64,000 bases of DNA, taken from positions 124,001-188,000 of the forward strand of contig JAKAWQ010000001.1 in NCBI GenBank assembly GCA_021816925.1, in the 5' to 3' direction. This document shows, piece by piece, positions 6,853 through 20,893 of this stretch. The notes beneath the pieces were generated by a model. That model made no database searches. It saw only the letters and a program-made list of their open reading frames with translations, and was not told where the DNA came from. The DNA is from Pseudomonadota bacterium (GTDB lineage Bacteria > Pseudomonadota > Alphaproteobacteria > Acetobacterales > Acetobacteraceae). Positions within the stretch are counted from its first letter, which is position 1. Every line of letters starts with the position of its first letter. Position numbers and translations under genes: made by a program.

Positions 6853-7203
6853 TCAACGACGGCGGGAGGATGCGGCCGGTTGCGTCGCAGGTGGACTGGA
6901 AGCCGGCATTGTTCCGGCTTGCTTCCCGGGAACCTCGGCGAGGGCGGGCAAGGAAGGCTGCGGCGGGCTGCGACCGTAGGCGGCAAGCTGTTGCGCGGTT
7001 GGTATCGAGTTGATGACCGCCCCCGCGTCGTTGCGGAAGTCAATCACGACGACGCCCTTCTCGGGATTGAGCACGACCGAGGGGATTTGCGGCACCATCG
7101 CGGCAAGGGCGGCACCCTCTGGAGCGACCTTGCGGTCTGGCGTCATCGAGGGTTCTGCCGGCGGCACGGAAGACATGGGGGGGATCGCAAGTTCGCTGGG
7201 CAT
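6853..7203 (-). CDS. Small proline-rich protein with FlaG-like core
   Basis: I chose the ATG at 7203 because GGGGAA sits about six bases upstream; ATGs at 7218 and 7260 would lengthen it to 135 residues. Both ends are Pro/Ala/Ser-rich and probably disordered. The centre, GVVVIDFRNDAGAVINSIPT followed by AQQLAAY, resembles in pattern the FlaG core (hydrophobic strand, then D-x-x-G-x-V-I-x-x-I-P). FlaG-type proteins influence flagellar filament length. The similarity is short and could be chance. It lies convergent to the glycosylation cassette with a 48-base gap. Confidence 0.5.
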   Translation of the reverse strand: MPSELAIPPMSSVPPAEPSMTPDRKVAPEGAALAAMVPQIPSVVLNPEKGVVVIDFRNDAGAVINSIPTAQQLAAYGRSPPQPSLPALAEVPGKQAGTMPASSPPATQPAASSRRR

Positions 7204-7298
7204 CGCCGTTCCCCGCATTGTGGATCGCCCGATTGGCGAAGGGGTAGGACCACGAGCCATCCTGGCGGCGCAATTTTTGTTTAGCTAGCAAAGCGACG

Positions 7299-8408
7299 TT
7301 AGCGGATGGTTAACGGAGCGTTCCCGAAGGCCGGGTTCATGCCAAGATGTGCGGTCATCCGGGCCAGGAGGTCCCCGTGTTCCGGTTCGGCCGGCAGGAG
7401 GCGAACCGCAACCTCGGCTTCCCGCACCACCGAATCGAGCCGTCCCTGCCGGCGCAGGGCGATGGCGAGAGCGTGGTGCAGCCAGCCATCATTGGGTGCG
7501 ATCTCCAGTCCCTTGCGCAGGGTGGCTTCCGCGTCGGGAAGGCGGCCGAGCGTGAGAAGAATAGTGCCACGCGCGCCGATCATGTGCGGGCGGCCGGGAG
7601 CCAACTGCAGGGCCTCGTCGATCAGGGCGAGCGCGCGTGGAGCGTGCTGCGCCGCCCGTGAGAGGTTGAAAAAATACTCGGCCGAGGTCTTCCGCCTCTC
7701 GCGGAACGTTCGGCGAAACGCGGGCGCGTCAAAAGCCTCGCCGAGGAGTCCGGCAATCAGGTCCTGGAACAGGCCGAGGCCCAGCAGGAACCGTGCCGGA
7801 TTGTGCCCGGAATAGGGCAGGCGCATCTCGAAAAGCCGGACAAAGCGTCGGTAAAGAAGGATATGCCTGAGATCAATGCCGCGGTTGTCGTAGATCACGA
7901 CCACGTGCGCCCTCACGTTGGTCCAGGGATCGCGATGGATGAAGCGGATGCGTGCCGCATCCCTGGCCCAGCGCGCATCAAAGGGCGGCTGTCGGGGGTC
8001 GATCGCGAACTGCGGTGCAATCGCAATCGCGGATTCGGCGCCGACGGCACCCGAAAAGCGGATGGCTGCGTAGCCGCCCATCGAGAGCCCGTACGTATAG
8101 CACCGCGCGAAGCTCATCCGGGCACGCGCCGCGGCGGCCATTGCCGCGTCCATTTCCGGATACTGATACCAATCGTTGCCTGCGCAGGTCACGTGCACGG
8201 CGCTGATACCGCGGCGGATCAGAAAGTCCTGGCCAAATCCCGGACGGTCCTTCCCCGGGACCTCGACCCAGCTTGCGAACGTCACAACCAGCCGATCGAC
8301 GGCGCCCGTGGGGACGTAGGTCACTTTCAGATTCTGGGACTCGAAAAGTGTGATCTGCGGCGGCTGGGGGAGCAAGGGGTCATTCCGCAAGAACCATGCG
8401 AATCGCAA
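7299..8408 (-). CDS. Alpha/beta-hydrolase-like protein with C-terminal TPR repeats
   Basis: About 369 residues. The chosen start is the TTG at 8408, which has GGGAAGG nine bases upstream; a TTG at 8435 gives 378 residues but lacks a spaced ribosome-binding site. The N-terminal two thirds show hydrolase features: RLVVTFASW and the nucleophile elbow YGLSMGGYAAI (G-x-S-x-G), with HNPARFL as a possible distal His. From about residue 250 the chain becomes TPR-like (ALALIDEALQLAPGRPHM, GRLPDAEATLRKGLEIAPND). The fusion suggests a hydrolase or acyltransferase recruited to a protein complex or glycan locus; the substrate is unknown. Confidence 0.75.
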   Translation of the reverse strand: MRFAWFLRNDPLLPQPPQITLFESQNLKVTYVPTGAVDRLVVTFASWVEVPGKDRPGFGQDFLIRRGISAVHVTCAGNDWYQYPEMDAAMAAAARARMSFARCYTYGLSMGGYAAIRFSGAVGAESAIAIAPQFAIDPRQPPFDARWARDAARIRFIHRDPWTNVRAHVVVIYDNRGIDLRHILLYRRFVRLFEMRLPYSGHNPARFLLGLGLFQDLIAGLLGEAFDAPAFRRTFRERRKTSAEYFFNLSRAAQHAPRALALIDEALQLAPGRPHMIGARGTILLTLGRLPDAEATLRKGLEIAPNDGWLHHALAIALRRQGRLDSVVREAEVAVRLLPAEPEHGDLLARMTAHLGMNPAFGNAPLTIR

Positions 8409-8673
8409 ACGAGCATGCCTTCCCGGCTGACACAAGTCCTGCGAGGTGCGATCGGGATTTTCTCCGATTCGCGTTCGCCGCCGGATCCTGGACCGCGGTC
8501 GCCGGAGGAGGACTCACGGGAGGCGGAAATTGCCGTCCCCCACCAACCACGCGAGAGGCGCCCCCTCCTGGGAATTCCGAAGGACTTCTGATTGCGATTC
8601 GATTCCTTGCTGCTTTGGTTCGTGGCCAGGGAGGACAGGATGGGCCTCAGTCAGCTTTCCAGAGGAGTGGGGA

Positions 8674-9657
8674 CTACGCGCCGCCGGCGTCGCTGCCGTC
8701 ACGGATGCAGGCGGCGCGATGACCCGGCGTACCGGTTTCGCGGAGCGGCGGTCTTGCCTGTTCGCACATCGGCAGGGCATGCCGGCAGCGCGTGCGGAAG
8801 ACGCAGCCTGTAGGAGGCTTGGCGGGACTCGGCGGCTCGCCGCGGAGCGGAGCGCTTCGGCGACGGCGCGCGGGATCAAGACTCGGCGCTGAGGCGAGCA
8901 AGGCCGCCGTGTAGGGGTGGCGGGGGCTCGTCAGGACCGCCTCGGTGCTCCCCTCCTCCATCACGCGCCCGAGATAGAGCACCACCACCCGCGAGCAGAG
9001 ATGGCGAACGGCTGGGAGATCATGGCTGATGAAGAGCATGGCCAGCCCGCGCCGGCGGCGGAGATCCGCCAGCAACGCGAGAATTTGGGCTTGTGCCGAA
9101 ACGTCGAGCGCCGAGACCGGCTCGTCGGCCACCAGGAAATCGGGTCCGGTGGCGAGGGCACGAGCGATGCCGATGCGTTGGCGCTGACCGCCCGAGAACT
9201 GATGGGGATAGCGCTTCGCGTGCTCGGGTTGCAGCCCGACCTCTTCCAAAAAGGCCGCGGCGCGTGCCGTTGCGGCGGCGCCGGCGGCGAGCCCATGGAT
9301 GGTCAGACCGTCTGCAATCTGCGCTCCGACTCGCCGGTGCGGGTCCAGGCTGACATACGGATCCTGGAATACGAGCTGCATGCGCCGGCGTAGCCGGCGC
9401 AGCGCCGCACCGCGGATGCGTGTCAGATCGATCCCGTCGAACAGAACGCGGCCCTCGCTCGGTGGCAGAAGGCCGAGCAGAATCCGCCCGATCGTGCTTT
9501 TTCCCGAACCGCTCTCGCCCACCAGCCCTACGGCTTCACCCCTGCCGACCGTGAGGCTCACCTCGGCAACCGCCGCCACCGGGCGGCGGCCGGAGAAAAG
9601 GCCGCGTTGACCGAACACCCGCCCCACACCCTCGGCAGCCACCAGGGGAGCGATCAT
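8674..9657 (-). CDS. dppF: Dipeptide/oligopeptide-type ABC transporter ATPase (DppF/OppF-like)
   Basis: 327 residues from the ATG at 9657, which overlaps the stop of the upstream permease-ATPase gene as ATGA. It shows Walker A GESGSGKST, Q-loop FQDPYVSLDPH, signature FSGGQRQRIGIARAL, Walker B FLVADEPVSALD and H-loop FISHDL. The C-terminal oligopeptide-transporter extension includes HPYTAALLASAP and CVFRTRC. It should power the importer encoded just upstream and is the last gene of the long minus-strand operon. The Dpp family takes peptides, nickel, opines and other amino-acid derivatives, so the substrate must come from context. Confidence 0.92.
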   Translation of the reverse strand: MIAPLVAAEGVGRVFGQRGLFSGRRPVAAVAEVSLTVGRGEAVGLVGESGSGKSTIGRILLGLLPPSEGRVLFDGIDLTRIRGAALRRLRRRMQLVFQDPYVSLDPHRRVGAQIADGLTIHGLAAGAAATARAAAFLEEVGLQPEHAKRYPHQFSGGQRQRIGIARALATGPDFLVADEPVSALDVSAQAQILALLADLRRRRGLAMLFISHDLPAVRHLCSRVVVLYLGRVMEEGSTEAVLTSPRHPYTAALLASAPSLDPARRRRSAPLRGEPPSPAKPPTGCVFRTRCRHALPMCEQARPPLRETGTPGHRAACIRDGSDAGGA

Positions 9658-11471
9658 GCCTCTGTGGCCCGGATGCAGCGCGAACGGTGGCCGGCGGCGA
9701 TCGCGAGCAGCGGCGGGTGCGTCGCCTCGCACGCCGCGAGCACGCGCGGGCAGCGCGGAGTGAACGCGCAGCCCTTCGGCAACGCATGGGGTTGCGGTAT
9801 CGTTCCGGGAATGGGCCGCGGCGGCGAACCGCCCTCGTCCGGCGCGCTCGCCAGGAGAGCAGAGGTGTAGGGATGTCGCGGCTCAGCGAACACCTCGGCG
9901 ACCGCGCCCTCCTCAACAATCTCGCCCGCGTACATCACGGCCACCCGTTCGGCGATCTCGGCGACCACCGGCAGGCTGTGCGTGATGAAGATCATGGCGA
10001 GCCCGCTCGTTCGTTGCAGGGTGGCCAGGAGATCGAGAATTTGGGCCTGAATCGTGACGTCCAGCGCCGTCGTCGGCTCGTCAGCCACGATCAGGCGCGG
10101 CTCGTTGGCGATCGCAATGGCGATCATGACGCGCTGGCGCATGCCCCCGGAGAGTTCGTGAGGAAAGGCGTCAAGGCGCTGCTCCGGGTCAGCGATTCCG
10201 ACCTTGCGAAGCAGGGACAGCGCCCGGATGCACGCTGCGCGACGGCCAATGCGCTGGTGCGCGCGGATGGCCTCGACGATCTGCGCACCAACTCGATGCA
10301 GCGGGTTCAGGCTACTCGTCGGATCCTGGAAGATCATCGCCAACCGCGATCCGGTGAGGGTGCGGCGTGCCGCCGGATCGAGCCGGAGGATTTCACGACC
10401 CTCCAGCCAAGCCGCCCCGGTTGTAACGCGCGCCGCGTCGGGCAGGACGCCGAGTAGCGCCAAGCCGGTCAGGGTCTTGCCGGAACCACTCTCACCAACA
10501 AGGGCGAGCGTCTCGCCGGCGCCGACGCTGAGCGAGACTTCACGCACCGGATGGATCGTGCCGCTCGGCGTTTCGATCGCCACCGTGAGATCGGCCAGCG
10601 CCAGCACGGCGCCCGCCGGCGGCGCGAGGCCAGGTAGCAAGGCGCCCAGCAGGCCACTGCGCCGCCATCGCACGACACCGTGCGGATCCGCCCGCTCACC
10701 GAGCCCGTCGCAGAGCGCATTGATGGAAAGCACGGTCCCGCTGAGTGCGAGGCAAGGCCAGAGCAGCAGGGCCGGATCCTGGGTCATCGTCGCCCGCGCT
10801 GCGCCGATCATCAGCCCCCAGGACGGCGTCGGCGGAACGACCCCCAGGCCGAGGAATGAAAGGCCGGATTCGAGAATGACACCGGCCGCGACAGCGAGGC
10901 TGAACTGAACGAAGAGCGGCCCGCCGATGTTGGGCAGGATAGTCCGCAGCATGATGCGCGTTGGGTGCACACCGAGCACACGGACTGCCTCCACGTAGTC
11001 GAGCGCGCGAGTCGCCAGCACCCCTGCATAGGCGACCCGCGTGAAACCCGGCAAGAAGAGGAGGGCAAGCACCGGAATGAGCGTGCCGATGCCGGGACCG
11101 AGCACGGTGACAACCAAGAGAGCAAGGAGAAGCGGGGGAAAGCAGAGCACGATATCCATCGTGCGCACGGTCAGGAGTTCAACGACACCGCGAAAGAACC
11201 CGCCGAGGACGCCGAACCCGATCCCGATCACACCCGCCAGCAGCGAGGCACCGAAGGCAACCGTGAGCGAACTCCGTGCGCCCCAAATCAGGCGGGAAAG
11301 CTCATCGCGCCCGAGCTCATCCCGGCCAAGCGGATGCGCGGCACTCGCACCGCCCAGCCGGTGCGCAATGTCGATCCTGACCGGACTGGCAAGCAGCAGC
11401 ACGGGGGCAAGCACTGCCGTCAGAGCGATCACGCAAACGGCCATGGCCGCAAGCCAGGGAAAGCGCCTCAT
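9654..11471 (-). CDS. Fused DppC permease and DppD ATPase of ABC importer
   Basis: 605 residues from the ATG at 11471, which overlaps the DppB stop as ATGA. Residues ~1-275 are a DppC-type permease: an N-terminal membrane span, [20 protein letters not shown], the coupling-loop [20 protein letters not shown] and [16 protein letters not shown]. After a short linker (~275-295) a full DppD-type ATPase follows: Walker [12 protein letters not shown], signature [15 protein letters not shown], Walker [14 protein letters not shown]-loop ITHSL and the [16 protein letters not shown] tail. These are usually two genes. No stop or frameshift is seen at the junction, so the fusion looks genuine. Confidence 0.9.
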
Positions 11472-12418
11472 TGCAGCCTTACACGAGGATCGAGCGCCGC
11501 GTAGATGAGGTCGATCAAAAGGTTCAAAGCGACGAACAGAACCGAGATGACGAGGACGATCCCCTGCACCTCGGTGTAATCGCGCGCATTCACTGCCTCG
11601 ACCAGGAGGCTGGAAAGGCCGGGCCAGTTGAACACGTACTCCACCAGCACCGTCCCACCGAGCAGTGCGCCGAGCTGGAGCCCGAACACCGTGACGACGG
11701 GCAGCATTGCGTTGCGCAGAACGTGGCGGCGGAGAACGCGGAATGGAGAGAGCCCCTTGGCGCGGGCGGCACGCACGTGATCGCGCCGGGCGACGTCCAG
11801 CACGGCGCTTCGCGTCATGCGGAAGACCGCGGCCGCGAGCCCGGCGCCGATGGTCAGTGCAGGCATGGCAAGCAGCACGAGATGCTGAAGCGGATTTTGC
11901 AGGAATGGCACGTAACCGCCGGCTGGCATCCATTGCAGGTTTACCGCGAACAACAGAATCAGAAGCGTGCCGGTTACGAACACGGGGACAGCAAGGGCAA
12001 GCCCAGCCAGCCAGCCGGCGAAGCGATCGAAAAGGCCGCCCTGCCGATTTGCTGCCAAGGTGCCGGCGGGCACGCCGACAAGCGCGGCGAAGAGGCCGGC
12101 CGCGAAAATCAGCTCAAGAGTGCGCGGCAGCCTGAAAAGCACCTCGCTCATGACGGGTGTGCCGTCCTCGAGCGAGTTGCCGAGATTGCCATGCAGGAGA
12201 TCATCCATGCTGGCCCAGTACTGCGTCCACAATGGCCGATCGAGTCCGAGTTCGCGCTTGAGTTCCGTCACGGCCCTTGGATCGGGTGCCACGCCACCTT
12301 GCGAAAGCAGCAGTTCCGCGGGGTTCCCGGGGATCAGCCGGATCGCAAGGAACACAATGCTGGCAACGATCCAGACGAGGCAGATCGAAATCCCGATCCG
12401 CCGCGCAAGCCAGAGCAT
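11468..12418 (-). CDS. dppB: ABC transporter permease (DppB-like)
   Basis: 316 residues with six hydrophobic segments. It begins with the family's typical N-terminal helix (ISICLVWIVASIVFLAIRL) and continues with PGNPAELLLSQ, LGLDRPLWTQYW and a periplasmic loop with GNSLEDGTPV. The coupling motif is DHVRAARAKGLSPFRVLRRH, followed by PVVTVFGLQLGALLGGTVLV. It forms the inner-membrane channel with the permease half of the fused downstream protein. It is separated from the upstream binding-protein gene by 117 bases containing a strong stem-loop. Confidence 0.93.
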   Translation of the reverse strand: MLWLARRIGISICLVWIVASIVFLAIRLIPGNPAELLLSQGGVAPDPRAVTELKRELGLDRPLWTQYWASMDDLLHGNLGNSLEDGTPVMSEVLFRLPRTLELIFAAGLFAALVGVPAGTLAANRQGGLFDRFAGWLAGLALAVPVFVTGTLLILLFAVNLQWMPAGGYVPFLQNPLQHLVLLAMPALTIGAGLAAAVFRMTRSAVLDVARRDHVRAARAKGLSPFRVLRRHVLRNAMLPVVTVFGLQLGALLGGTVLVEYVFNWPGLSSLLVEAVNARDYTEVQGIVLVISVLFVALNLLIDLIYAALDPRVRLQ

Positions 12419-12433
12419 CTCGGCTAGAAATAC

Positions 12434-12465
12434 CCGGCCGACATCCCTCTAGGGGTGTTGGCCGG
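12434..12465 (-). terminator. Stem-loop between binding-protein gene and permease genes
   Basis: Two arms pair across a four-base loop: CCGGCC/GGCCGG at the base, then ACA/TGT and CCC/GGG, with two single mismatches on the transcript strand (12 of 14 positions paired). No T-run follows, so a full intrinsic terminator is unlikely. A hairpin at this point in binding-protein-dependent importers commonly stabilises the upstream mRNA or partly attenuates readthrough, so that binding protein exceeds permease. That role is inference. Confidence 0.55.
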
Positions 12466-12535
12466 ATCAGTCGGCAAAGTCGGTCTGGGACGCTGCGCCA
12501 TGCGGATGCATTCGAGCAGTCAAGGCAGAGGTGCG

Positions 12536-14059
12536 TCAGGCAAGGCTGGTATCCTCCAGCGTGTACCCGGAATAGAACGTGAGTGCGCCTGGAAGGTTTT
12601 GAAATCCCTCGACCATCTTCTGCATCGCATAGGCCTGTGAGCGCCAGCAGAGCCCGGCGATCGGAGTGTCCTTCAGCACGAGCTCCTGCACCTTGTCGTA
12701 GATCGCCTTGCGCTTGGCTGCGTTGAACTCCGCGCGTCCTTCCGCCAGCAGCCTGTGCAGGCCGGGCACGACGAGATCATAGCTCCGTTCGTAGGAGGCC
12801 GAGAGCCTGCCGTCGAGGAGCGGTGTGAGGCCATCCGGATCGTTGCTCTCGGCGGCCGAGCCCATCACCGCGAATTCGTACTGGCCGCGATTGCCAAGCG
12901 CCACCCGCGTCGCCCAGTCCGGCAGATTGAGCCTGACAGTGATGCCGATGGCGGCGAGATCTTGCTGCACCACCTCGGCCGTGATCTTGTGCATGCCGTA
13001 TTGTGCAGTCGAAAGCAGCGTCGCCGAGAACCCGCTCGGAAACCCGGCCTCCGCGAGAAGCTTCTTCGCGCGCGCCGGATCGTAGGTCCAGAAATCGGCG
13101 AGCTTGGCATCGTAAAAGGGCGTTCCTTTGGGGATGGGCACGCCGCGGAGCGGCGCGCCGCGCCCATAGAAGGCGCTCTTCACGATATCCTCGCGTTTGA
13201 CGGCGAAGGCCACCGCCTGGCGGACGCGCGGGTCCTTGAAGGGCCCGGAGCGCGCATTGAAGGTCAGGTACATGAACGGGCCGAACGTGCTTTGCATCTT
13301 GAGCTTCGGGTTGGCTTCGATCGCCGTCATCGACTGCCAGGGTACGTATTCGATCAGATCGACATTGCCCGCCTGCAGCGCCGCTACGCGAAGGTTTTCG
13401 TCCGGATACGCAATAAAACGGATCTCCTTCAGCTTCGGCAGGCCGGGCTTGTAGTATTTCGGAAAGGCGGAGCCGGTGACCGAGACGCCGCGCTCATAGG
13501 ATTTCAGCACAAAGGGCCCGCAGCCGACCGGAAGTTTGCCCCGTGCCGTCGTCCCCGGCACGACGATCGAAGCGTAGAACGGTGCGAGCCAGTCCGGGAA
13601 GGTCGCAGTCGGTTGCTTCATGATCACGCGCATCGTTTTTGCGTCCGGAGTCTCGATCCTTTCGATGCCTTGGAACTGCGCGCGCATATAGGCGGTCGAG
13701 TTCGGCGCCGCGATCTGCTCGAACGACCATTTGACGGCCGCGGAATCAACCGCTGCGCCGTTGTGGAAGAGCGCCGGCCGGAGATGGAACACCCAGCCCG
13801 TATGTCCGTCGGACTCCCAGTGCTCGGCCACCTCGCCCTGGATCGTGCCGTCCGGGGCATAGGAAACGAGGCCTCGGTGATGCATCAGCACCACGGTGCC
13901 GGCCGCTGTGCCGGCATTGATCCAGGGATGCAGATTGGGCGGATAGCTCGAAAGCCCGAAGGTCAGAACCTCCGGCGGGCTCGCCGCGCGCGCCCGGGTC
14001 GCCCGCAGTAAAGGTAAAGCGGCGCCGGCTGAAAGCACGGCCCGACGGGACAGAACCAT
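12536..14059 (-). CDS. Periplasmic solute-binding protein, family 5 (DppA/OppA-like)
   Basis: 507 residues from the ATG at 14059, which has AGGAGG six bases upstream; this rules out in-frame ATGs at 14083 and 14095. The N-terminus MVLSRRAVLSAGAALPLL is a twin-arginine-type signal, probably cleaved near ARAAS. The mature protein has the SBP_bac_5 pattern: PPNLHPWINAGTAAGTV, HLRPALFHNGAAVDSAAVKW, DPRVRQAVAFAVKREDIV and DPARAKKLLAEAGFPSG. It delivers the substrate to the DppB/DppCD/DppF importer downstream. Relatives bind peptides, but also opines, nickel-ligands and glutathione. Confidence 0.93.
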   Translation of the reverse strand: MVLSRRAVLSAGAALPLLRATRARAASPPEVLTFGLSSYPPNLHPWINAGTAAGTVVLMHHRGLVSYAPDGTIQGEVAEHWESDGHTGWVFHLRPALFHNGAAVDSAAVKWSFEQIAAPNSTAYMRAQFQGIERIETPDAKTMRVIMKQPTATFPDWLAPFYASIVVPGTTARGKLPVGCGPFVLKSYERGVSVTGSAFPKYYKPGLPKLKEIRFIAYPDENLRVAALQAGNVDLIEYVPWQSMTAIEANPKLKMQSTFGPFMYLTFNARSGPFKDPRVRQAVAFAVKREDIVKSAFYGRGAPLRGVPIPKGTPFYDAKLADFWTYDPARAKKLLAEAGFPSGFSATLLSTAQYGMHKITAEVVQQDLAAIGITVRLNLPDWATRVALGNRGQYEFAVMGSAAESNDPDGLTPLLDGRLSASYERSYDLVVPGLHRLLAEGRAEFNAAKRKAIYDKVQELVLKDTPIAGLCWRSQAYAMQKMVEGFQNLPGALTFYSGYTLEDTSLA

Positions 14060-14091
14060 GTGTGCCTCCTCTTGATTTTTCATCTTTCCGA

Positions 14092-15765
14092 TCATTCCGC
14101 CGCGGCCGCAGCCGCGGTTGCGAAGCGTTCCTCGGCGCTGTCGCGCGCCCGCTCCTCGGCTGTCCGCTCCTCGGGCGGCCCGTATCCGCCGCTCCCCGGC
14201 GTGATGATCTCCACGATATCACCGGCCTTGAGCGCACCCGACCCGTGCTCGAAAGGACCGACCCCCGGCCCGAAGCGGAACTCGCCCTTGCCGCCCGGAA
14301 GGCCGCCGGCGAGGCCCCAGGGCGCGGACCTCAGTCGTGACCCGTCGAGCCGGAGCCGGCACTCCGCTTCGGCGCGATAGACGCGGCGCAATCCCATGCC
14401 GCCGCGCCGGCGGCCCGCACCGCCCGAGCCGTTCACGAGTTCATAACGCAGCACGCTCAACGGATACTCGCCCTCGAGCGCTTCCACTGGCAGGTTCGAG
14501 GTGTTGGTGACGTGCACGTGGACGCCGTCGAGCCCATCCTTCGTAGCCCGTGCCCCCGATCCGCCGCCGATCGTCTCGAGATAAACCCAGAGATGACCAC
14601 CCTCGGGACTCCCGTCCTCCGGCCGCGTACCAACGAACGTTGCGGAGGTTACAGCGCCGTTGCATGCGGCGATCACGCGCTCGGGCACTGCCTTGGCGAG
14701 CGCGCCATGGATCAGATCGACCACCCGCTGGCAGGTGCCCGTGCGCCCGTTCACCGCCGCCGGATGCACGCAATGGAGCACAGTTCCCGCGGGTGCGGTG
14801 ACATGGATCGGGCGTGCGAGCCCCGCATTCGGCAGGATCGTCGGGTCGACCACGGTCTTCACCGCGTAATAGACAGTCGAGAGAAGCGCGGTGAAAACGA
14901 GGTTGATTCCCGCGCGCACCTGCGGCGGGCTGTCGAAATGGAGATGCATCTCCTCCCCGGCGACGGTGATCGTGACCGCGAAGTCGAGCTCCCCGTCGAG
15001 TTCCGGGCAGTCGAACCGGTCTGCAAAACGGTGTGTGCCGTCCGGGATCGCGGCAATGCCGGCCCGCATCTTGCGCTCCGCATAATTCTGCAAGGCGGCC
15101 CCCGCCGCGAGCACGGTCCCGAGTCCGTAGCGCGCCGCGAGCGCTTGCATGCGCTGCACGCCGAGGCGGTTCGCCGCCATTTGCGCGCGAAGGTCGGAAA
15201 GCCGCTCGCGCGGCACCTGGCAATTGAGAAGGATCAGCTCCTGCACGTCCTCCTGCAGCACGCCGGCCCGATACAGCCGGATCGGCGGAATGCGCAGCCC
15301 CTCCTGGTAGATGTGTGCGTGCCCGCGATCCGCGAAATCGGCATGGTGCGCGAGATTCACTGCCCAGGCGACCATCCGCCCCTCGAAGAAGATCGGCTCG
15401 GCGAGCACGATGTCCGGCAGATGCGTTCCACCGCCCTCGTAGGCATCGTTGCCGACGAACACATCGCCGGGTTTGATCCCCACCTCCGGATGGCGTTTCA
15501 GAATATGCGGCAGGATGCCGATGAAGCTGCCGAGATGCATCGGGATGTGCTCGGCCTGGCAGAGCGTGTTCCCCGCGGTATCGAAGAGCGCCGTCGAGCA
15601 GTCGCGCCGCTCCTTGATGTTCGTCGAGTAGCTCGCCCGGACCAGCGCCTCTCCCATCTCCTCCGCGATCGAGGCGAAGGCGCTGCCCAGCACCTCAACG
15701 GTGATGGGATCGATCGCCGTTGCATCGGCGCGGAGGATCTCGGGGCAAGCGACAGCGGGGTTCAT
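14092..15765 (-). CDS. hyuB: Hydantoinase B / 5-oxoprolinase beta-type subunit
   Basis: 557 residues. It starts at ATG 15765, overlapping the HyuA stop as ATGA. Conserved HyuB stretches include DPITVEVLGSAFASIAEEMG, ERRDCSTALFDTAGNTLCQA, HLGSFIG, GDVFVGNDAYEGGGTHLPDI, VNLAHHADFAD and, near the C-terminus, GGAGRRRGGMGLRRVY and TPGSGGYGPPEER. With HyuA it forms the ATP-dependent enzyme that opens hydantoin, N-methylhydantoin or pyroglutamate-type lactam rings; acetone carboxylase subunits are distant relatives. The gene ends 32 bases before the binding-protein gene. Confidence 0.92.
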   Translation of the reverse strand: MNPAVACPEILRADATAIDPITVEVLGSAFASIAEEMGEALVRASYSTNIKERRDCSTALFDTAGNTLCQAEHIPMHLGSFIGILPHILKRHPEVGIKPGDVFVGNDAYEGGGTHLPDIVLAEPIFFEGRMVAWAVNLAHHADFADRGHAHIYQEGLRIPPIRLYRAGVLQEDVQELILLNCQVPRERLSDLRAQMAANRLGVQRMQALAARYGLGTVLAAGAALQNYAERKMRAGIAAIPDGTHRFADRFDCPELDGELDFAVTITVAGEEMHLHFDSPPQVRAGINLVFTALLSTVYYAVKTVVDPTILPNAGLARPIHVTAPAGTVLHCVHPAAVNGRTGTCQRVVDLIHGALAKAVPERVIAACNGAVTSATFVGTRPEDGSPEGGHLWVYLETIGGGSGARATKDGLDGVHVHVTNTSNLPVEALEGEYPLSVLRYELVNGSGGAGRRRGGMGLRRVYRAEAECRLRLDGSRLRSAPWGLAGGLPGGKGEFRFGPGVGPFEHGSGALKAGDIVEIITPGSGGYGPPEERTAEERARDSAEERFATAAAAAAE

Positions 15766-17813
15766 GCGGCCTCCAGCAACAGGTTGCGGATCGGATCGAC
15801 GCTTGCCCGCATGCCGGACGGAACCATCGTGGTTGCATCCATCTGCTCGATCACCGCTGGCCCGTCAATACGGTTGCCAGGCCGCAGTATTTCGCGGTCA
15901 TAGATCGGGCAGGTGACGAAACCCCTGATCTCGGAAAGCCACACCTTACGCTCACCCGTCGCTGACGCGCACACACCCGCTTCCGCCGGCGGCTCGGGGC
16001 GAAGCTCCGCCTTCTTCACCGCGCCAGTCGCCTGCACGCGGAAGGTTACCATTTGCACGGGCTCCTCTGCTGCGGCAAAGCCGTACGTCCGCTCGTGCGC
16101 GCGCGCAAACCCCTCCGCCAGATGGGTGATCCAGCCCGACCCCGGGGGTCCGTCTGCTAGCGGGACGGAAAGTTCATAATTCTGTCCCGCGTAGCGCAGA
16201 TCGACGGTTCGCTCGACGCGCCGCGCTGCAGCCGCCACGCCCTCCTCGGCGAACCACGCGGCAGCCTCGGCGTCCAGCCGGGTGAAGATCGCCGCCATCT
16301 CGCCGAGCGAAGCCGGACCGAGCGGCAACAGGTGGGTCGCCGCAAAATCCGCCCGCAGGTCGGTGAGCAGAAGGCCCATCGCGCAGAGGATGCCCGGGTT
16401 GCGCGGCACGAGGATGCGGCGGATCTCGAGTTCGCGCGCAAGCCGCGCCGCGTGCAGTGGCCCGGCCCCGCCGAAAGCGACCAGAATGTAGTCGCGCGGG
16501 TCGTAGCCGCGCTGGACGCTGATCACGCGGATAGCCTTCGCCATGTTCGCCGTTACCACGGCGAGGATGCCCTCGGCGGTCGCGTGGAGATCCATCCCGA
16601 GCCGGCCCGCAAGCCGCGCGATCGCACGCTCGGCAAGATCCTGCCGGACCGGCATCCGCCCGCCGAGCAGGTGCGTCGGGTTCAATGTCTGAAGAACCAC
16701 GTTGGCGTCCGTCACGGTGGGCTCCGCACTGCCCCGCGCATAGCAGACCGGACCGGGATCGGCGCCGGCGCTCTCGGGCCCCACCTTCAGGAGACCGCCG
16801 CTGTCGATGTAAGCAACCGATCCGCCGCCTGCGCCAACGGTGTGAATATCGAGCATCGGCGCCTTGATCGGATAGCCGTGCACCGTTGCCTCGCTGGTGA
16901 GCCGGCAACGCCCGCCTTCGAGCAACGCAACATCGGTCGAGGTACCGCCCATATCGAAGGTAATGAGGTCGGTGAAGCCGGCGAGCCGCCCCACAGCCTC
17001 GGCAGCAACCACGCCGGTCGAGGGGCCTGAAAGAACCGTCCGCACCGGAAGCCGCGCCGCCGCATCGAACCCGATCACCCCGCCGTTCGACTGCGTAAGA
17101 TGCGGCTTCGCGGAGATGCCGATCTCCTTGAGACGGCCGGCAAGACGCTCGATATAGCCTTGCATCACCGGCCCGAGCGTTGCGTTGACGACGGTCGTGG
17201 AAAGTCGCTCATATTCTCGGAACTCGGGCGCCACCTCGTGCCCGATCGAGGCGAAGGCCTCGGGAAACTCTTCGGCCAGGATGCGCCGCGCGATGACCTC
17301 GTGTGCGGGGCGCACGAATCCGTAGAGGAACGCGATCGCAACCGCCTTCACTCCCTTCTTGCGCAGCCGCCGTATCGCCTGGCGCACCGCATCTTCGTCG
17401 AGCCTTGTCTCCACGCCGCCGTCATGGCGCACGCGCTCGGGCACCTCGAGTCGGAGATCGCGGCTGACCAGTGCCGGGGGTTTGTCTGCCTGCAGGTCAT
17501 AGAGGTCGGGGCGCTTCTGCCGGCCGATCTCGAGCAGATCGCGGAAGCCCTCGGTAGTGATGAGCCCGGTCAGCACGCCGCGTCCCTGGATCAGCGCGTT
17601 GGTCGAGACCGTCGTGCCGTGGCCGAAGGAAACGATCTCGACCGCTTCTGCGCCGAGTCGGGATAGGCTTTCGGAGACACTGGCAGCGATGCCGTGCGAA
17701 GGATCTGCCGGAGTGGACGGCACCTTCCAGACCTCCATGCGCCCGGTCTCGGTTTCGAAGAGAGAGATATCCGTGAAAGTGCCTCCGGAATCGACGCCGA
17801 TCCGCCATGTCAT
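15762..17813 (-). CDS. hyuA: Hydantoinase A / 5-oxoprolinase alpha-type subunit
   Basis: 683 residues. ASKHA-type ATP-binding motifs are visible: RIGVDSGGTFTDISLFE at the N-terminus, SFGHGTTVSTNALIQGRG, LTQSNGGVIGFDAAARLP, ITFDMGGTSTDVALLEGG near residue 280 and VAFGGAGPLHAARLARELE. Known HyuA/5-oxoprolinase subunits phosphorylate the ring amide before hydrolysis. The start overlaps the kinase stop by four bases, and the stop overlaps hyuB, so kinase-hyuA-hyuB are tightly coupled. This coupling to an Amadori-type kinase is what makes the operon unusual. Confidence 0.93.
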   Translation of the reverse strand: MTWRIGVDSGGTFTDISLFETETGRMEVWKVPSTPADPSHGIAASVSESLSRLGAEAVEIVSFGHGTTVSTNALIQGRGVLTGLITTEGFRDLLEIGRQKRPDLYDLQADKPPALVSRDLRLEVPERVRHDGGVETRLDEDAVRQAIRRLRKKGVKAVAIAFLYGFVRPAHEVIARRILAEEFPEAFASIGHEVAPEFREYERLSTTVVNATLGPVMQGYIERLAGRLKEIGISAKPHLTQSNGGVIGFDAAARLPVRTVLSGPSTGVVAAEAVGRLAGFTDLITFDMGGTSTDVALLEGGRCRLTSEATVHGYPIKAPMLDIHTVGAGGGSVAYIDSGGLLKVGPESAGADPGPVCYARGSAEPTVTDANVVLQTLNPTHLLGGRMPVRQDLAERAIARLAGRLGMDLHATAEGILAVVTANMAKAIRVISVQRGYDPRDYILVAFGGAGPLHAARLARELEIRRILVPRNPGILCAMGLLLTDLRADFAATHLLPLGPASLGEMAAIFTRLDAEAAAWFAEEGVAAAARRVERTVDLRYAGQNYELSVPLADGPPGSGWITHLAEGFARAHERTYGFAAAEEPVQMVTFRVQATGAVKKAELRPEPPAEAGVCASATGERKVWLSEIRGFVTCPIYDREILRPGNRIDGPAVIEQMDATTMVPSGMRASVDPIRNLLLEAA

Positions 17814-18688
17814 GGGTGCTGTTCCGTGCGTGCCAGGATGGTTGCCGCGGCGCCGTGCCAGGGCGCTCCGTGGCCGAAGGCGCCGTGCGCGCGGCAGACA
17901 TCCGCGGCGAGGCGCGTGCCCGCGGCGAGTGCCTCGCCGATCGGTCGGCGGCTGAGATGGGCGATGAGAAAGGCAGCGATGAAGGCATCTCCCGCGCCGA
18001 GCGTGTCCACCGGGCGGATCGGCACCGCAGGCTCATCGAAAACTTGCCCCTCGGCGAGCGCCATTGCCCCCGCTGCCCCGCGTGTTGCAACCACGATCGG
18101 CGGTCCGGCGGCGGCGATCTGTTCGAGCAGCGCCGTGCAGGTCGCCGGCGGTGCGTGCGGGGCGGAAAAAAAGGCAATATCCGCCAAGGGCAGGGCAGCG
18201 GTGGCGCGCGGGGAGAAAGGCCCTTCGGAGCAATCGTAGGAGAGCAGCACTGCATGCTGGCGAATCACCGGCAGGACATCCTCGGCCTCGCTGTTGATCC
18301 CGGTATGCACCACATCGTAGGTCACGACGCTGGCGAGGTCCGCCTGGGTGAACATATACTCTGCCCTGACTCCGGAATTTGCGGCAAGAAATCGCCGCTC
18401 ACCTCCTTCCAGTCCGATCATGGCCCGCGCATTCGCGCCCGCGCGGCGCCGGCAAAGCCTGAGATCGACACCCTCGGCCGCCAGCGCCGCCGCCAGCAGG
18501 TCTCCCCCTTCGTCATCACCGAGACAGCCGAGATAGCCTGCCTCCGCGCCGAGTCGGCTGGCGAACACAGCGACATTCACCGCATTGCCGCGGGGGAACT
18601 GCAGGGCGAGATCGACATAGGTGTCGATTGTGTTGTCGCCCAGGCCGAGCAGGCGGATGGCAAGTTGCGGCAAGCCCGGGCCACCCAT
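17810..18688 (-). CDS. PfkB-family sugar kinase, fructoselysine-6-kinase-like (FrlD-like)
   Basis: About 292 residues from ATG 18688, chosen because GGAGG lies eight bases upstream; ATG 18748 would add 20 Pro-rich residues with no ribosome-binding site. N-terminal substrate-binding segments are RLLGLGDNTIDTYV and FPRGNAVNVAVFASRLG. The ATP/anion-hole motif with the catalytic Asp is DTLGAGDAFIAAFLIA. FrlD-type enzymes phosphorylate C6 of the sugar part of fructosyl-amino acids, the step before an SIS-domain deglycase, which is exactly the gene upstream here. Other PfkB substrates such as fructose or ribose are possible. Confidence 0.8.
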   Translation of the reverse strand: MGGPGLPQLAIRLLGLGDNTIDTYVDLALQFPRGNAVNVAVFASRLGAEAGYLGCLGDDEGGDLLAAALAAEGVDLRLCRRRAGANARAMIGLEGGERRFLAANSGVRAEYMFTQADLASVVTYDVVHTGINSEAEDVLPVIRQHAVLLSYDCSEGPFSPRATAALPLADIAFFSAPHAPPATCTALLEQIAAAGPPIVVATRGAAGAMALAEGQVFDEPAVPIRPVDTLGAGDAFIAAFLIAHLSRRPIGEALAAGTRLAADVCRAHGAFGHGAPWHGAAATILARTEQHP

Positions 18689-18755
18689 CGGCGGCGCCTC
18701 CGTTCTGCCGGGTTGCGGGTTGCGCGGGAAGGCAGGAGACGGTTGCATGGCACGG

Positions 18756-19769
18756 TTAATAGTCCGTCTTCCCCATGTAGCGCCGGGTCGAGAGGGGATG
18801 GCGGTGCAGGCGAGAAAGATGCACCGCGACCCGCTTCAGTGCCGCCTGCAGGACGTAGGGCGCAACGATGGGGCGGATCCGCGCATCGACGCCGGGCATC
18901 GCGAAATTGCGCGAGTCATAGACGAAGAGACGCTCCGCATGGCGCCGGCAGAACGCGAGCACGCGCTCCATCAGCGGCCGACTCGGATCTTCGCCAAGGA
19001 TGAGAACGAGCGGCGTGTCGCGCTCGACGACCTCGAATGGGCCGTGAAAGAACTCCGCTGCCTCGATCGGATAGGAGTGTATCCAAAGCATCTCCATAAG
19101 CACGCACACGCCGAACACGTAGGCCGTGGTGAAGCCGGGTCCGGATGCGACGTGATAGAGGATACGGTCGTCCCGCAGTGCGTGGGCATCGGCGGCGGCG
19201 CGCGCGTCGGCCTCGCTGGCCGCCGCAGCGATCGCCTCGGGCAGTGCATTGAGGGAGTCACGAAGCCGGCCGGCGTCCGGCCAGCCGTCCTTAGCCGCGA
19301 GCAGCCCACCGGCCAGGCTTTGCATCACCATGAAGATGCCGGTGAAGGATTCCGCGGTCGGACCGATCAGAAAATGCGTTTCCACCGTTCGCGCCAGCGG
19401 CGAGTCAGCCGATTGCGTAAATGCAACCGTCTGGCACGGCAGGCGGTGCAGAAACTCGGCTGCGGCCACCGTCTCGGGCGTCGCGCCCGACTTCGAAGCA
19501 AGCAACACGAGTGTCCCCTTGTCCAGGCGCCGCGGTGCCTTGGCGGTGAATTCCGCCGGAAAGTACCGGCGCACTTCGAGCGAGGGGCTGCACCGCTCGA
19601 GCCAGTACTCCAGGCCGAGCATCGCCCGATTGGACGATCCCGCGGCGACAAGGAACAAGCGGTCGGTGGCAGGCGCAAGGCTCTGCCCGAGCGCCATAGC
19701 CTCGGATACGGACGCGACCGACCCCGCGAGCCCTTCAATGATGCCGGTGGGATCAAGGTCGGGAGACAA
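18756..19769 (-). CDS. SIS-domain protein, fructoselysine-6-phosphate deglycase-like (FrlB-like)
   Basis: 337 residues. No ATG or GTG exists between 19769 and the in-frame stop at 19830, so the TTG at 19769 with GAGG five bases upstream is taken as the start; ATG 19697 is a shorter option. Two SIS folds are visible: FLVAAGSSNRAMLGLEYWL and VLLASKSGATPETVAAAEF, then a second half with YHVASGPGFTTAYVFGVC. The segment SYPIEAAEFFHGPFEVV and the RRYMGKTDY C-terminus are typical of FrlB/AgaS-like deglycases, which release glucose 6-phosphate and the free amine from 6-phosphofructosyl-amines. First gene of the operon. Confidence 0.85.
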   Translation of the reverse strand: MSPDLDPTGIIEGLAGSVASVSEAMALGQSLAPATDRLFLVAAGSSNRAMLGLEYWLERCSPSLEVRRYFPAEFTAKAPRRLDKGTLVLLASKSGATPETVAAAEFLHRLPCQTVAFTQSADSPLARTVETHFLIGPTAESFTGIFMVMQSLAGGLLAAKDGWPDAGRLRDSLNALPEAIAAAASEADARAAADAHALRDDRILYHVASGPGFTTAYVFGVCVLMEMLWIHSYPIEAAEFFHGPFEVVERDTPLVLILGEDPSRPLMERVLAFCRRHAERLFVYDSRNFAMPGVDARIRPIVAPYVLQAALKRVAVHLSRLHRHPLSTRRYMGKTDY

Positions 19770-19794
19770 GACGGCCTCGGCGTCAGGGAGGAGT

Positions 19795-19806
19795 TGGTAT
19801 ATACCA
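19795..19806. promoter_or_regulatory. Palindromic operator for GntR/HutC-type regulator
   Basis: The sequence TGGTATATACCA is a perfect 12-bp palindrome. It contains GTATATAC, an exact match to the HutC-subfamily pattern GT-N-TA-N-AC. It lies 26 bases upstream of the deglycase start and 87 bases upstream of the divergent GntR/UTRA gene. It overlaps the predicted -10 of the minus-strand operon, so bound repressor would block it. That the neighbouring regulator binds here is inference from family and position. Confidence 0.7.
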
Positions 19807-19824
19807 GTTGCACGTCCATGCCAA
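19796..19824 (-). promoter_or_regulatory. Predicted promoter of the deglycase-kinase-hyuAB-dpp operon
   Basis: Reading the minus strand, TTGGCA (19824-19819) is followed 15 bases later by TATATA, or 17 bases later by TATACC. Both -10 choices lie inside the operator palindrome. This would put transcription start close to the TTG start codon, giving a short leader. Strength and exact start are not determinable here. Confidence 0.45.
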
Positions 19825-19892
19825 GCGCCCTATAGAGGCTTCGTCATCGTCGGCGCCGACTCGGCGAGGACTCTGAACGACGGCATTCCAGC

Positions 19893-20660
19893 ATGGACGT
19901 GGCGCGCTCTCGCAAGGCTGCCGGCTCGGAGCGGCGATTGCCGCTGCACCGGCTGATCGAGCAGTATCTTCGTGATCTCATCGGCGCTCCGGATATCCGG
20001 CCGGGGGATCGTGTGCCTTCCGAGCGGGCGCTCGCGGAACGCTTGAACGCCAACCGCATGACCGTGCGCAAAGCCGTAGACCGCCTAGTCGCGCAGGGCT
20101 TGCTCGAACGGGACGGCACCAGCGGGACGCGAGTGACGCGGCCGCGCGTCGTGCGGCCGGCTGATGCGCACACCTCTCTTGGTATTGCGCGAATCGTGCG
20201 TAGCGGCGGAGGATCGCCCGGCAATAAGCTGATTCATTTCGTTGCCTCACGAGCGGATGTGCGCATCGCGAAATGGCTTGCCGTTGCGGAAGGAGAGCCG
20301 ATCATCGTGATCCGCCGCCTCTGGATGGTGGACGATGTCCCTTTCTGCATCGAGACGAGCCACCTTCCGGCTGGGCTTGTGCCCGGTCTGGCCGCCGAGG
20401 ACCTTTCGGCTGGCCAGTCCTTGTATGGGCTTCTGCGAGCCCGATTCGGGATCGAGACCTTGCACGGCGAGCGCCTGATCAGCGTCACGAGTTGCACCGA
20501 GTTGGAGGCGCGCCTGCTTGGGCTTGATCGTGGTGCTCCCGCCCTGCTTCTCAGGCTTCGCGCGTCCGATGCGAGCGACCGGCCGGTCGAATACCTGGCC
20601 TCGGTCAACCATCCCGGCCGCGTCCAGTTCCGTAGCGCGAAGGCAGAACTTCCCTCCTGA
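19893..20660 (+). CDS. GntR-family regulator with UTRA effector domain (HutC/FrlR-like)
   Basis: 255 residues. The N-terminal winged helix-turn-helix (residues ~15-85) has PLHRLIEQYLRDLI, IRPGDRVPSERALAERL and NRMTVRKAVDRLVAQGLL. The C-terminal UTRA domain (~100-250) includes GEPIIVIRRLWMVDDVPFC and LGLDRGAPALLLRLRASD. This subfamily senses sugars, amino acids or their phosphorylated derivatives; FrlR and FraR-type regulators of Amadori catabolism belong to it. It is divergent from the deglycase operon across a 123-base region with a matching operator, so it is probably its repressor, released by the substrate or a pathway intermediate (inference). Confidence 0.9.
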   Translation: MDVARSRKAAGSERRLPLHRLIEQYLRDLIGAPDIRPGDRVPSERALAERLNANRMTVRKAVDRLVAQGLLERDGTSGTRVTRPRVVRPADAHTSLGIARIVRSGGGSPGNKLIHFVASRADVRIAKWLAVAEGEPIIVIRRLWMVDDVPFCIETSHLPAGLVPGLAAEDLSAGQSLYGLLRARFGIETLHGERLISVTSCTELEARLLGLDRGAPALLLRLRASDASDRPVEYLASVNHPGRVQFRSAKAELPS

Positions 20661-20893
20661 TCCAGGGCTTTCGGCGTGCGAGGCACCGGGTCGGGAGCGG
20701 GCACGAGGAGGTCGGCCGGCCCTTAAGGCGGATCGCGCTTGACCGGAATCGCGAAGCGATTGGGCAGCGCGCGAACCTGCTCCAGGCGCGATCGTTCGGC
20801 ATTCCGAGCCTCCCGGTTCGTCCGACTGCGGCGCGATGCCTTGTCCGGTTGAGCGCATCTGCGCTAAAGCCGCCCGCTCACGCCGCGAGCAGA

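Follow-up and report, generated by a model that had tools for sequence, protein, structure and literature searches.

A perfect palindrome over the -10 region as the probable operator of a GntR/UTRA regulator beside a predicted sugar-amine catabolic operon

The 12 bp of TGGTATATACCA are very probably the single operator of the GntR/UTRA repressor encoded beside them, placed over the -10 of the operon that this regulator would control and released by the product of the operon's own kinase. The binding itself, the repressive sign of the control, the autorepression of the regulator gene and the identity of the inducer are what we infer within this reading from sequence comparisons. The site and its regulator are of a known type, the GntR/HutC operators of NagR and DasR, and the switch is an ordinary one. 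To the preliminary description we add a better placement of the -10, divergent promoters that overlap, further half-sites seen in relatives, and a possible regulon that crosses phyla. The features at the center of the argument, in coordinates of the window (the whole stretch of 64,000 nucleotides analysed), are the following.

19795-19806, no strand: operator palindrome TGGTATATACCA, called from its sequence, its uniqueness and its conservation in relatives
19893-20660, plus strand: gntR, a GntR/UTRA (HutC-type) regulator with Pfam GntR and UTRA domains, whose nearest solved structures are DasR and NagR/YvoA
18756-19769, minus strand: first gene of the operon, for a SIS protein resembling fructosamine-6-phosphate deglycases, from profile matches and alignment of its start

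The preliminary description had proposed a perfect palindrome with a GT-N-TA-N-AC core between a regulator and the operon it should control, and both parts are borne out: the 12 bp are perfectly symmetric with GT-A-TA-T-AC inside, and gntR and the SIS gene lie on either side, reading away from the site. The protein encoded by gntR carries an N-terminal GntR winged helix (7.9e-18) and a C-terminal UTRA domain (6.6e-31), and an operator of this core pattern is found close to the gene. The SIS gene starts at a TTG codon at 19769, which aligns with the ATG starts of four orthologues. The palindrome matches only once in the window when up to two mismatches are allowed, where 0.20 matches would be expected by chance, and with up to one mismatch it remains the sole match in the complete genome of 4,304,047 bases. 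This single site in 4.3 Mb led us to rule out a genome-wide regulon in this organism, and since the scan gave no further regulon member, control here should be local.

The operon downstream of the SIS gene continues on the same strand.

17810-18748, minus strand: PfkB kinase, fructoselysine-6-kinase-like, from profile matches
15762-17813, minus strand: HyuA, hydantoinase/oxoprolinase family, from profile matches
14092-15765, minus strand: HyuB, hydantoinase B/oxoprolinase family, from profile matches
12536-14095, minus strand: ABC transporter solute-binding protein (SBP_bac_5), from profile matches; where split off in relatives it has operator copies of its own
11468-12418, minus strand: ABC transporter permease, from profile matches
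9654-11933, minus strand: a single reading frame for an ABC transporter permease and ATPase, with its true start internal to the frame
8674-9732, minus strand: second ABC transporter ATPase, last gene of the operon, with Walker motifs read from the translation

From this gene content we predict a catabolic operon for sugar-amine compounds. As in the frl operons of E. coli and B. subtilis, a GntR/UTRA regulator gene accompanies genes for an SIS deglycase-like protein and a PfkB kinase, but HyuAB and a dipeptide-type transporter are additions here. The SIS protein scores 116 bits where the frl deglycase equivalog cut-off is 430, and the kinase 186 bits where the cut-off is 247; both are thus relatives of the frl proteins and not members. 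Residues E226 and H242 of the SIS protein align to the conserved Glu and His of E. coli FrlB. One chemically coherent idea is that HyuAB may open a glycated lactam, for example N-fructosyl-pyroglutamate, before deglycation. The operon, within the region 7112-20838, is an accessory module that is absent from four genomes of the same genus. One of the genomes compared (G001) has about 5.1 kb of other sequence between the same flanks, with a gene that is PQQ-dehydrogenase-like by translation, beside a tRNA-Leu.

The relation between site, operon and regulator becomes apparent when relatives are compared. Among 195 related genomes, the window's own included, the SIS gene occurs in five (again counting our own), and the same five hold a gntR orthologue of at least 54% identity. 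The exact palindrome is present in all five of these and in 5 of the 190 genomes without the operon (Fisher p 1.1e-7, a value that ignores shared ancestry). The reversed sequence, used as control, occurs in 6 of the 195 genomes, about the same rate as the palindrome in genomes without the operon. Two of those five background copies were inspected (L096:1500-1511 and L100:1501-1512); they precede toxin-antitoxin-like genes and were treated as unrelated. In one genome gntR is 75 kb away, and site, operon and orthologue still occur together. In one of the five (G106) it is the transporter gene that the exact palindrome precedes, and a copy with one change stands before the SIS gene.

A wider search, in which 80 loci were fetched, extends the pattern. 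In each of the 20 proteobacterial HyuAB loci the site, intact or with a single change, is found 22-47 bp upstream of the SIS match, and where the solute-binding protein is encoded apart from the cluster, in Bosea, Limobrevibacterium and a metagenome-assembled genome (L038), its gene has its own operator copy or copies. Across 1.5 Mb of loci we counted 90 near matches to the 12-mer, compared with 0-11 for 30 other palindromes made of the same letters. In 11 whole genomes it was found at 32 places, 28 in the cluster, two before a RidA-like operon and two inside unrelated reading frames; 30 of the 32 precede pathway genes, and the other two (G199 and G205) were treated as chance. Bosea sp. 47.2.35 has two TGGTATACACCA sites 107 bp apart outside the cluster (L150:4121-4239), and the genes behind them, for a RidA-like protein, a DAO-type oxidoreductase and an SDR, are a predicted extra member of the regulon. 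The earlier suggestion that the 12-mer could serve as a search string for other regulon members therefore holds for relatives, where it leads to the separated transporter genes and to this RidA-oxidoreductase operon, but not for the window's own genome with its one site. Clusters of the Bacillus type have three copies each, before gntR, pfkB and SIS/transporter genes. The actinobacterial loci of Nesterenkonia (L076) and Aeromicrobium (L090) share the SIS-PfkB-HyuA-HyuB-ABC gene set, and no TGGTATATACCA site and no gntR match were found beside their clusters.

The following elements place the palindrome within promoter sequence.

19819-19824, minus strand: -35 TTGGCA of the SIS operon promoter, its TTG conserved in relatives
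19796-19801, minus strand: -10 TATACC of the same promoter, inside the operator, with a 17-nt spacer to TTGGCA; a spacing of 16-18 is kept in relatives
19808-19836, plus strand: candidate gntR promoter TTGCAC-N17-TATAGA, read by eye

A -35 TTGGCA lying outward of the site had been proposed, and it is found on the minus strand at 19824-19819. A TTG stands 17-19 bp before the palindrome in 10 alphaproteobacterial SIS promoters outside Bosea, that of the window included, and in the same 10 the spacer from TTG to TATACC is 16-18 nt. The claim that a TATA-like -10 coincides with the palindrome is right about the overlap and wrong about the register, which is shifted by two bases. We disfavour TATATA, which would leave a 15-nt spacer, and prefer TATACC because relatives keep the TTG at 16-18 nt from it; it is this conserved spacing to the -35 that puts the -10 inside the palindrome. 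A strict consensus sigma-70 scan of the region found neither the SIS operon promoter nor that of gntR, so the call of the former rests on conservation. Bosea and one further locus (L050) have a TTGACA 23-24 bp before the palindrome, and their -10 should accordingly be placed differently, while another (L060) shows no comparable TTG before it. The candidate gntR promoter (TTGCAC at 19808-19813, TATAGA at 19831-19836) overlaps the SIS promoter on the opposite strand, so one bound dimer could affect both.

Given TATA-like letters at the -10 position, and chance exact copies in genomes without the operon, the palindrome might be thought to be promoter sequence only, an extended -10 whose symmetry arose by chance. 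However, all 12 letters are conserved across genera and phyla, the outer GG and CC as well, and copies travel with genes that have split off from the operon. We give this explanation almost no credence and continue with the palindrome as a regulator's operator.

Which regulator uses the site can be approached through NagR, whose Arg38 and Arg48 recognize G-5 and G-4 and whose wing makes contact with G-7 through Gly69 (PMC4333415). R45 and R55 of the window regulator align to these two arginines and GG is present in both half-sites; Thr76 takes the place of Gly69, and neither half-site has a G at -7. The genome encodes five UTRA proteins, and the neighbour is the only one with both base-reading arginines, which is our strongest reason not to assign the site to a different regulator. 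It is very unlikely that one of the other four owns the palindrome, even though a GTATATAC core precedes the gene of one of them: each of the four lacks Arg in at least one of the two positions, and it is the neighbour's orthologue that occurs together with site and operon across genomes. Elsewhere in the window's genome, CCGGTATATACATT lies just before the start of one of these other UTRA regulator genes (L109:2263-2276). Its GT-N-TA-N-AC core is flanked by GG on just one side, and the NagR rule would permit this for its regulator, which has Ser and Arg at the base-reading positions. Where a lineage has both arginines, its half-sites are mostly TGGT, although these lineages are not statistically independent. 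The first arginine is replaced by Ala in Paenibacillus-type regulators and by Asn in E. coli FrlR, both of which go without the site; the region upstream of E. coli frlA has none similar. Taken with the conserved site, the co-occurrence of site, operon and gntR, and the use of the 12-mer in searches, R45 and R55 make it well supported that the neighbouring regulator controls the operon through TGGTATATACCA, as the preliminary description had proposed.

Comparison with the closest known systems shows both what is shared and what is particular to this one. NagR (YvoA of B. subtilis) and DasR of Streptomyces belong to the same family as the window regulator, and their dre operators lie within promoters and are built from half-sites of the same geometry, in which a pair of arginines reads G-5 and G-4. 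The window site differs in its inner letters ATAT and in having no G at -7, as its regulator does in having Thr for the wing Gly69. It is also perfectly palindromic, in contrast to the imperfect native dre sites of B. subtilis (PMC4333415), and its control is local, where NagR and DasR govern an amino-sugar or a global regulon. The SIS-PfkB clusters of Bacillus and Neobacillus (L063-L069, L080, L082, L088, L091 and L093) share TGGTATATACCA and a two-arginine regulator with the window, but have three operators to its one and several SIS genes. HyuAB had no match in these fetched loci.

In the mechanism that we propose, a regulator dimer would bind both TGGT half-sites, and in each of them R45 and R55 would read the two guanines. 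Since the -10 of the SIS operon promoter falls within the site, the bound dimer would exclude RNA polymerase, and because it abuts the divergent candidate promoter, binding would probably also limit expression of gntR. The transported substrate would be phosphorylated by the PfkB kinase to what is probably a fructosamine-6-phosphate-type compound. This product would then bind the UTRA domain, pull the DNA-binding domains apart and release the operon. Such a substrate-induced derepression is plausible. In the effector pocket, where residues were compared only, R142, S176 and Y178 correspond to the phosphate-binding Arg133, Ser165 and Tyr167 of NagR (PMC4333415). Trp144 replaces NagR Arg135, so the pocket differs. 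For FrlR the proposed effector is fructoselysine-6-phosphate, and the sign of its control is disputed (PMC12632257, PMC7475707).

That dispute is relevant here, since the same site and regulator could instead activate the operon, or combine repression with activation. One study reported activation by B. subtilis FrlR (PMC7475707), and an activator could make use of an additional TGGTNTA-like half-site that we see in direct orientation 12 or 13 bp upstream in Bosea, Limobrevibacterium and four other loci (L018, L026, L037 and L050). However, the palindrome lies over the -10 and not upstream of the -35, the later FrlR study concludes repression (PMC12632257), and at the extra half-site position the window has only a degenerate TGGACGT. 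We consider activation improbable, though less so than the other alternatives, and keep to repression. The extra half-sites in relatives could possibly hold two adjacent dimers or form a stronger complex. In place of the palindrome, promoters in Pseudomonas (L041:9766-9971 and other loci) carry TGGTNTA half-sites in tandem, spaced 12 bp apart. The Pseudomonas loci combine gntR-SIS-pfkB with an apparent polar amino acid ABC transporter, a type read from translations; this combination is consistent with glycated amino acids being the substrates. A much broader picture would make TGGTATATACCA the mark of an undescribed cross-phylum regulon for glycated compounds. In its HyuAB branch, ATP-dependent lactam opening by HyuAB would let kinase and deglycase together remove the sugar, and tandem half-sites at 12-13 bp in many relatives would provide graded control through adjacent dimers; we offer this as speculation that is rather unlikely to hold as a whole.

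Literature searches for the 12-mer, and for Amadori compounds combined with hydantoinase/oxoprolinase, returned no relevant paper. The comparisons provide a predicted operator-regulator pair for an uncharacterised catabolic operon, together with a 12-letter string that finds the remaining regulon in related genomes. The same 12 letters precede related operons as far off as Bacillus, and our results suggest that the two-arginine rule of NagR can tell to which UTRA regulator a given site belongs. The finding also points to a fructosamine-type pathway joined with an oxoprolinase-type enzyme.
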